Assembly: GCF_014634805.1 (NCBI RefSeq)
Contig: NZ_BMBS01000004.1
Span: 1 to 64,000, forward strand
Direction: 5' to 3'
DNA from: Leuconostoc falkenbergense
GTDB lineage: Bacteria > Bacillota > Bacilli > Lactobacillales > Lactobacillaceae
DNA: 64,000 bases
The notes under the pieces were generated by a model. That model did not search any database, was not told the DNA's origin, and was given only the letters and a program-made list of their open reading frames with translations. The first letter of the stretch is position 1, and the number at the start of each line of letters is the position of its first letter. Of the stretch, positions 46,708 through 52,126 are shown one piece after another. The position numbers and the translations under genes were made by a program.

Positions 46708-46736
46708 TTGACATGTAAATATTAGTAGTGTATATT
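46708..46736 (+). promoter_or_regulatory. Promoter of the leucine-leader transcript
   Basis: A perfect TTGACA at 46708-46713 and TATATT at 46731-46736 are separated by 17 bases. The transcript would start near 46743 and carry about 275 bases of leader before the membrane protein gene. Confidence 0.8.
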
Positions 46737-46788
46737 AATATTCATAAAGTAATAGCGCATTCGTCGCTCAAATATAAGGAGTCGTATC

Positions 46789-46851
46789 ATGACAAAGCAC
46801 ATGACCATCAAATTCAATAACGCCCTCCTCCTCAACCTCCAACTCATTTGA
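46789..46851 (+). CDS. Leucine-rich leader peptide (20 residues)
   Basis: After AAGGAG, ATG 46789 opens a 20-codon frame that ends at TGA 46849-46851: MTKHMTIKFNNALLLNLQLI. Five of the last eight codons are Leu and every one is CTC (three in a row, then two more), a use of one rarer codon that is typical of ribosome-stalling attenuators. It is followed at once by a strong hairpin and then a terminator. No function is expected for the peptide itself; its translation rate would sense charged tRNA-Leu. Confidence 0.8.
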   Translation: MTKHMTIKFNNALLLNLQLI

Positions 46852-46967
46852 GTCTAGTAGGTTGTTATTTGAGCAACATCAGCTACTAGACTATCGTCAT
46901 TGATAAGTTTGGTGGCTGGTTAGGTAGGAATGTCCTAACGAGCAATCGTTGGGACATTTTTATTTTT
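46851..46967 (+). promoter_or_regulatory. Transcription attenuator: competing hairpins and terminator
   Basis: AGTCTAGTAG (46851-46860) pairs perfectly with CTACTAGACT (46883-46892) and contains an inner GTTG/CAAC stem. TGTCCTAACGA (46931-46941) pairs with TCGTTGGGACA (46946-46956), followed by TTTTTATTTTT: a terminator. GTTAGG (46919-46924) can instead pair with CCTAAC (46934-46939) and disrupt it, and CAATCGTTG (46944-46952) can pair with CAACGATTG (46970-46978). The set of exclusive stems behind a Leu-rich frame is the layout of a peptide-coded attenuator. Confidence 0.75.
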
Positions 46968-47019
46968 CTCAACGATTGTGGGCTCACATTGGAGAACACA
47001 CATTTAAGGAGAAAGAATT

Positions 47020-48159
47020 ATGGCACAAAATGCAATTACAGCAAAACAGGTAAAATCAGCAAGTAACAAAAAGTCAGCAGCGGTCGACAAAGAATCAATT
47101 CGCGATACAGTGTACAAAGTCAGCGCCGCTGTCTCTAATGCAATATTGGTGACGTTGGGTATGGGCCTATTGTTGCAAACAATTGCAGGATTTATTCACT
47201 GGGCACCAATGGTACAAATGGGTGCCATCACAAAAGTAATGTTGCCAGCTGCTTTTGGCGCAGCGATTGCTTCACAAATGAAGACCAATACAATGGTTAT
47301 GTTTAGTGCTATGGCTGCATCAGCGGTTGGTGCTAACGCTGTATTTTTCACTGATAAAGCTGTGCAAGGTGTTACCGCAACTGGTTATGCCGGTGCACAA
47401 GCTGCTGGGTCAGCAATTATTACAACTGGACAACCGATTTCGGCTGTATTGGCTGGTTTGATTGCCGTGTTGTTTGGTAAATGGTTGAGTGGAAAAACAC
47501 CATTGGATATGGTGATTGTCCCTGCTGCAACAACAATTGTTGGAACAGTTGCGGGTTACTATTTGGCCGCTGTAACAACACCAATTTTGGTTGCTATTGG
47601 TGCTTTCATTGCTTCAAGTGTTGCAGTTAACCCAATTATTGGAACAGCTGTTGTTGCGATGGTATTCGGTGCTTTGACAATGACACCAGCCTCAGCCGCC
47701 GCATTGGCAGTTGCTATTGGTGCCACGGGTGTAACGTCGCCGGAAGCAGCCGGTGCTATCTTGATTGGTACAACCGCAGTATTCGTTGGTTTCCCTGCAA
47801 TGTCATTCCATGAAAACAAGATTGGGGCAACCATTGCACAAGGTATTGTAACACCAAAAATTCAATTCCCTAATTTGACAGAAAATCCAGCTTTGATTAT
47901 CCCACCAATGATTGGCGCCGCAATTGCTGCGCCAATTGCAACAATGGTCTTCCATGTGACGGCACCATTCGCGATGGCAGGTATCGGATTTAACTCATTC
48001 ATTGTGCCATTGGCATTGGCAGGATCTAACCCAGTTGCATTTGCTGCTTATATGGGTGTCGGCGTTGCTGTACCAGTCGTTGTTTCATTTATTGGCTATC
48101 GCATTATGCGTAAAATTGGTTGGGCTAAGCCACAACAGTTGCACTTGGAAATGATCTAA
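47020..48159 (+). CDS. PTS_EIIC_2 family (PfoR-like) membrane protein
   Basis: This 379-residue protein has a polar Lys/Ser-rich N-terminus (about 30 residues) and then eight to ten membrane segments with unusual Ala, Gly, Ile and Thr content. The fold family is inferred from the overall pattern and motifs such as GFPAMSFHENKIGATIAQGI and LAGSNPVAFAAYMGVG, which resemble the PTS_EIIC_2 family. No IIA or IIB domains or genes are adjacent, so PTS transport is doubtful. AAGGAGAAAG precedes the ATG. The leader upstream implies leucine-dependent control, so an amino-acid-related transport role is a fair guess. Confidence 0.7.
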   Translation: MAQNAITAKQVKSASNKKSAAVDKESIRDTVYKVSAAVSNAILVTLGMGLLLQTIAGFIHWAPMVQMGAITKVMLPAAFGAAIASQMKTNTMVMFSAMAASAVGANAVFFTDKAVQGVTATGYAGAQAAGSAIITTGQPISAVLAGLIAVLFGKWLSGKTPLDMVIVPAATTIVGTVAGYYLAAVTTPILVAIGAFIASSVAVNPIIGTAVVAMVFGALTMTPASAAALAVAIGATGVTSPEAAGAILIGTTAVFVGFPAMSFHENKIGATIAQGIVTPKIQFPNLTENPALIIPPMIGAAIAAPIATMVFHVTAPFAMAGIGFNSFIVPLALAGSNPVAFAAYMGVGVAVPVVVSFIGYRIMRKIGWAKPQQLHLEMI

Positions 48160-52042: not shown

Positions 52043-52126
52043 TGCCGATGACAGGAATCGAACCTGCACGATGTTGCCATCATACCGACCTGAACGGTAC
52101 GCGTCTGCCAGTTCCGCCACATCGGC
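52043..52126 (-). tRNA. tRNA-Leu(CAG)
   Basis: Read on the minus strand, GCCGATG at the 5' end pairs with CATCGGC before the discriminator A. The D arm includes GGCGGAACTGGCAGAC, the anticodon stem-loop is TACCG-TTCAGGT-CGGTA with anticodon CAG, the long variable arm is GATG-GCAA-CATC (class II tRNA, as for Leu), and the T arm is CAGGTTCGATTCCTG. It is 84 bases long. CCA is not encoded, so RNase Z processing and CCA addition are needed. It reads CTG codons. Confidence 0.95.

Follow-up and report, generated by a model that had tools for sequence, protein, structure and literature searches.

Upstream of a gene for a membrane protein of the PF13303 (PTS_EIIC_2) family in Leuconostoc falkenbergense, we find a leader with the anatomy of a ribosome-mediated transcription attenuator, which would sense the supply of leucyl-tRNA and control this single gene. 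We consider it quite probable that the gene is regulated by leucine attenuation and that its product, which has the fold of a PTS IIC component and would take no part in phosphotransfer, most likely serves to import leucine (or branched-chain amino acids). Attenuation by branched-chain leader peptides is already known in Firmicutes; the interesting part is the probable reassignment of the protein. The initial annotation of this DNA regarded the pairing of a leucine attenuator with a gene of this family as undescribed, and our search of the literature available outside subscription found no description of it. The analysis offers a testable substrate for a family of membrane proteins that is widespread and carries a misleading name, and indicates that the codons of leader peptides may be usable as labels of the substrate.

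The leader, of roughly 300 nt, separates a divergent small gene from the gene for the 379-amino-acid membrane protein (47020–48159; coordinates are on the plus strand of the window, the whole 64,000-nt stretch analysed, unless stated otherwise). It follows a sigma-70-type promoter (46708–46736) consisting of TTGACA (46708–46713), a 17-nt spacer and TATATT (46731–46736). This promoter, initially called perfect, matches 11 of the 12 consensus bases; matches of such quality in the region number 10, against 9.5 expected by chance, and TTGACA and a TATA-type −10 element recur 5′ of the orthologous Leuconostoc leaders. A Shine–Dalgarno sequence, AAGGAG (46776–46781), precedes the leader peptide MTKHMTIKFNNALLLNLQLI (46789–46851, including the stop codon), whose 20 codons include five CTC leucine codons among the last eight. 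We denote the pairing elements around it as segments 0–6. Segment 1 (AGTCTAGTAGGTTG, 46851–46864) has its 5′ end at the stop codon of the leader, between a few and 27 nt 3′ of the leucine codons. Segment 2 (CAGCTACTAGACT, 46880–46892) pairs with segment 1 or 3, and segment 3 (TGGTGGCTGGTTAGG, 46910–46924) with segment 2 or 4. Segment 4 (ATGTCCTAACGAGC, 46930–46943) is either the 3′ arm of an antiterminator or the 5′ arm of an intrinsic terminator, the 3′ arm of which is segment 5 (CGTTGGGACAT, with the T run 46947–46967). The hairpin that starts at the stop codon has ten pairs (46851–46860 with 46883–46892) and the terminator has eleven (46930–46940 with 46947–46957), followed by the T run; for these two helices and for the leader frame, the initial annotation was accurate base by base. 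The terminator was located by folding and alignment, having been missed by an automated terminator scan. Outside this chain, segment 0 (GCTCAAATA, 46766–46774), in the 5′ untranslated region, is complementary to an element in the loop between segments 1 and 2 (TATTTGAGC, 46866–46874), and segment 6 (CTCAACGATTG, 46968–46978), 3′ of the T run, pairs with 46943–46953. The loop element, which contains TTTGAGC, has a second possible partner in a GCTCA 3′ of segment 6 (46979–46990). The membrane protein gene has its own AAGGAG Shine–Dalgarno sequence (47007–47012) and is probably transcribed alone, as a terminator-like repeat of its own and a gene on the opposite strand lie 3′ of it. Further along, the window contains a tRNA gene (52043–52126, minus strand; RF00005, 49.5 bits).

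Folding supports this anatomy. The 277-nt leader folds with a z-score of −7.8 and its 126-nt 3′ part with a z-score of −8.3, no shuffled sequence being as good in either case. The five alternating segments define two exclusive states, since segment 2 is common to pairings 1:2 and 2:3 and segment 4 to pairings 3:4 and 4:5, such that 1:2 and 3:4 together exclude 2:3 and 4:5. The initial annotation described two pairings as competing with the terminator. Direct competition comes from 3:4 alone; 2:3 is compatible with the terminator and acts against 3:4, which it blocks. The anatomy suggests where the ribosome would stall and in which direction the switch would work. When leucine is plentiful, the ribosome would complete the leader and remain at the stop codon with segment 1 hidden beneath it, so that 2:3 and then 4:5 would form and transcription would stop. 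When leucine is short, the ribosome would stall a few nucleotides further 5′, at the CTC codons, and leave segment 1 free; 1:2 and then 3:4 would form, the terminator could not, and the gene would be read. The leader thus combines a Shine–Dalgarno sequence and a short translatable frame with a run of leucine codons, an intrinsic terminator between this frame and the gene, and a mutually exclusive antiterminator so placed that the location of the ribosome decides between the two. The OFF fold (−54 kcal/mol) is far more stable than the ON fold (−39 kcal/mol), so readthrough must be kinetic. A T-box (RF00230), a riboswitch and other Rfam elements were considered as the identity of the leader, and none gave a significant match.

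The pairings of segments 0 and 6, both conserved, add to those recognized initially. In Leuconostoc-type leaders, segment 0 binds the 1–2 loop with a mean energy of −11.4 kcal/mol, against −6.0 (s.d. 2.0) kcal/mol for shuffled loops; in Fructobacillus, the pairing does not rise above shuffles. Segment 0 may be a stand-in protector segment when the leader is untranslated, and the effect of abolishing leader translation is therefore not safely predictable; we had taken expression to be the necessary result of such a loss, and dropped this expectation once segment 0 was found. Segment 6 pairs with segment 5 of its own leader at a mean of −15.1, with those of other species at −12.2 and with shuffled sequences at −7.5, and the pairing is strongly compensatory in Leuconostoc carnosum. 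As it would be possible only after readthrough, it may hold the ON form, which is a guess.

The leader is conserved in its coding as well as its pairing. A scan of genome contigs yielded 28 orthologous loci from Leuconostoc, Periweissella, Convivina, Fructobacillus and relatives, including a Leuconostoc pseudomesenteroides protein that is 99% identical. The leucine run is kept in 28 of 28, as ALLLNLLLI, FALLLSLL or a close variant; the N-terminal half of the peptide drifts, and CTC is exchanged for CTT, CTA or TTG with the residue still leucine. This comparison, proposed with the initial annotation, also showed that the aligned leaders share the exclusive stems, with covariation, and the contrary outcome named there, orthologues lacking the run and the terminator, did not occur. 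Across 14 Leuconostoc-type leaders, stem 1:2 is 99.5% paired with one compensatory pair, stem 2:3 is 93.7% paired with two, and the terminator 4:5 is 98.7% paired with three, a value reached by none of 500 shuffles. Stem 3:4 is 99.2% paired and, being almost invariant, provides neither a compensatory change nor a covariation test in Leuconostoc. Scored on the RNA made before the 3′ arm of the terminator, this antiterminator outscores 96% or more of the shuffled sequences in each leader of the Leuconostoc type. In Fructobacillus and Convivina, the topology is kept with different sequences. The Fructobacillus 3:4 consists of an unrelated set of bases; in Convivina and L1_55_11, this stem is weak. 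A leader arising by chance is ruled out by this conservation (28 of 28) and by controls on neighbouring genes. Any stall 5′ of the stop codon would, by our reasoning, free segment 1, and the leader might on that account respond to slow translation or to starvation in general; we give this idea hardly any credence, as the clade conserves leucine codons alone at the control position and the paralogues carry isoleucine and valine codons there.

A covariance model of the element, run on the same genome, found two further copies with the same five-segment layout, at lower scores than the leader described above. One lies directly 5′ of leuA of leuABCD (L211:15040–15177, minus strand; genes at L211:10809–15023, minus strand), with the leader peptide MRNQATVQINKTNAALLLNLLRLP (E = 0.0017), and links the element with leucine metabolism inside a single cell. 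The other, with the leader peptide MHKTMKQVNHSLLYLLLN (E = 2e-16), lies 5′ of a gene for a NicO nickel/cobalt transporter (L211:6375–7409, minus strand; leader near L211:7585–7790, minus strand, G000:C1:94084–94215:-). A metal transporter gene is an unexpected target for a leucine switch, and its presence here means that possession of the switch is no proof of a role in amino acid transport. Together, the copies suggest that this lactic acid bacterium has a regulon governed by leucine attenuation, with this metal transporter gene among its members. In other Leuconostoc genomes, the model also matches 5′ of NicO genes and of a helix–turn–helix regulator-like gene; the latter has leaders in several (L213, L214, L218 and L219), of which MNKKIKKLNNILIILLLN is an example.

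The protein belongs with PTS IIC components in both sequence (PF13303, 2.4e-67) and fold. Its AlphaFold2 model has a pLDDT of 90, and the best Foldseek matches are PtsG and ChbC, with TM-scores of about 0.5. These resemblances are what speaks for a true sugar IIC that uses distant IIA and IIB partners and is merely induced by leucine starvation, a reading we regard as extremely unlikely. As the initial annotation stated, there are no IIA or IIB genes nearby: none occurs among the neighbouring genes scanned, which encode a PF04018 protein, UDG, Pta, RecJ-like, phosphoribosyltransferase and LOR-like proteins and two proteins lacking Pfam matches. Sugar IICs conserve, and need, a catalytic histidine and glutamate, and no column of an alignment of 59 homologues holds either residue at 80% or more. 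Branched-chain regulation across Bacilli, described below, also argues against sugar uptake. The family also goes by the name PfoR, 'putative toxin regulator', in keeping with a membrane sensor or regulator rather than a transporter. In a table for group A Streptococcus, the entry for sloR reads 'transcriptional regulator pfoR' (PMC2843714). We think this role very unlikely, because the transporter fold extends over the whole chain, and Pfam, the model and Foldseek revealed no domain for DNA binding or signalling. PF13303 is the sole Pfam match, with none to BrnQ/LIVCS (PF05525); a PDB sequence search with the family profile gave no match, and NCBIfam holds no family for the protein.

It is the regulation from which we infer leucine, or branched-chain amino acids, as the substrate. 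The same type of switch precedes leucine-making genes and, elsewhere, related proteins, making a branched-chain amino acid transporter more likely, and a gene switched on by starvation would more readily encode an importer than an exporter. IlvD is missing from the genome, so that formation of branched-chain keto acids by the usual route is improbable despite leuABCD; the organism is probably a branched-chain auxotroph and probably imports these amino acids. Leucine itself might be made from a valine-derived keto acid. The presence of two BrnQ-type carriers elsewhere in the genome counts against this reading. The initial proposal that the gene serves branched-chain supply rather than sugar uptake is supported by the leuABCD attenuator, the absence of IlvD and, among homologues, isoleucine/valine leaders, a leucine T-box and CodY-like boxes.

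These homologues show branched-chain regulation in several forms. PF13303 is present four times in the genome, and the closest paralogue of the target protein, on contig C8, has a leader of the isoleucine/valine type, MQRLSVNNFTQSIQINIVVIII. Tandem Fructobacillus copies carry a leucine leader and then an isoleucine/valine leader, and more distant Bacilli homologues have mixed leucine, isoleucine and valine leaders. One homologue has a T-box (73.6 bits, below the Rfam gathering score of 93; E = 9e-16), with a CUC specifier in our own placement; CUC is given as the leucine specifier of Bacillus subtilis ilv-leu in the title of a reference in a T-box survey (PMC2494555). Others have CodY-box-like sites, with 13 or 14 of the 15 CodY-box bases, which are rare in shuffles, and one family (f24) has a leader and a CodY-like site together. 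Leucine leaders, isoleucine/valine leaders, the T-box and CodY-type sites thus replace one another on the same gene within the family. With a uniform detector, branched-chain leaders are called for 70 of 143 genes of the PF13303 family and for 14 of 387 genes in their neighbourhood, a control figure that is an upper limit, at least some of the 14 being misassigned PF13303 genes, and a ratio that is not a probability because many of the genomes are related. The co-regulation is not phylogenetically independent throughout. In a clade at about 55% identity (other Lactobacillaceae, Lactobacillus-type), branched-chain signals are absent save for one T-box and one CodY-like site; a BCARR box, considered as an explanation, gave no match when judged by eye. 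Homologues at this identity (L065–L073 and L105–L107) have no leaders, and in several, the stretch from the promoter to the start codon contains shared TTCTCAT or TTCTAATCT-like repeats. Separately, Leuconostoc citreum has a leader with an isoleucine run, MVNSAKTNVQIIISIIIIS, and a terminator (L013:1547–1750) 5′ of a hydratase/fumarylacetoacetase-like gene (family assigned by eye).

The specificity of the leaders follows the protein tree. We built a 118-row tree after manual correction of the leader peptides that the detector had overlooked or assigned wrongly. The leucine-only leaders group in a single clade of 26 rows (one change; support 98), and its sister group consists of the tandem copies that carry isoleucine/valine leaders; the tree is a quick one with long branches, and we trust it only for its near part. 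Such agreement between leader and protein is what substrate specificity predicts, and, like the homologues with a leucine T-box or CodY-like sites, it counts against a protein whose cargo is a compound related to leucine (its keto or hydroxy acid), or some other nutrient required when leucine runs out, under an attenuator that is real. This alternative, which we hold to be unlikely, draws on the NicO gene under the same switch and on two remote PF13303 paralogues of the genome that adjoin genes for D-2-hydroxyacid dehydrogenases (L001:80–2576 and L002:171–2595). One of these paralogues also adjoins an aminotransferase-like fragment. For the family at large, we lean, with some reserve, towards a model drawn from these comparisons of sequence, in which the PF13303 proteins of Bacilli would be unrecognized importers of branched-chain amino acids on a PTS IIC scaffold that dispenses with phosphotransfer. 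The preference for leucine or for isoleucine/valine would have been set after duplication and be mirrored in the leader codons, and the Leuconostoc regulon would include leuABCD and NicO.

Comparison with known systems places the leader among ribosome-mediated attenuators, and leader peptides of Firmicutes were noted in 2010 (PMC2965389). The leucine-responsive ilv-leu attenuator of Staphylococcus aureus has a leader peptide with isoleucine and leucine codons, a terminator and a proposed antiterminator (PMC5794164). It shares the leader peptide and terminator with the PF13303 leader, a likeness of layout; it differs in that its target is biosynthetic and its proposed antiterminator pairs with the U tract. 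Rli60 of Listeria monocytogenes, a ribosome-mediated branched-chain attenuator combined with CodY, likewise in a Firmicute, controls ilv-leu genes (PMC5864092), and loss of its leader translation lowers expression, whereas the effect of such a loss is uncertain for the PF13303 leader. A leucine T-box, present on one homologue of the target gene, also gives antitermination on leucine starvation; it is a tRNA-binding RNA that has no leader peptide, and the PF13303 leader has no T-box match. Excerpts of the T-box survey of transporters list other families and not PF13303 (PMC2494555). The protein shares the predicted fold of the PTS EIIC glucose superfamily (PtsG and ChbC), from which it is set apart by the lack of adjacent IIA/IIB genes and of a conserved histidine or glutamate, and by regulation of an amino acid type. 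In the his and leu attenuators of enterobacteria, a chain of alternative stems ends in a terminator and is read by the ribosome at control codons. The PF13303 leader likewise has a chain of this kind, with control codons and a terminator; in contrast to these attenuators, however, its control codons precede segment 1, the 5′ end of which is the stop codon, it has no segment A identified inside the leader frame, for which segment 0 may substitute, and it carries an extra segment 6 after the T run.
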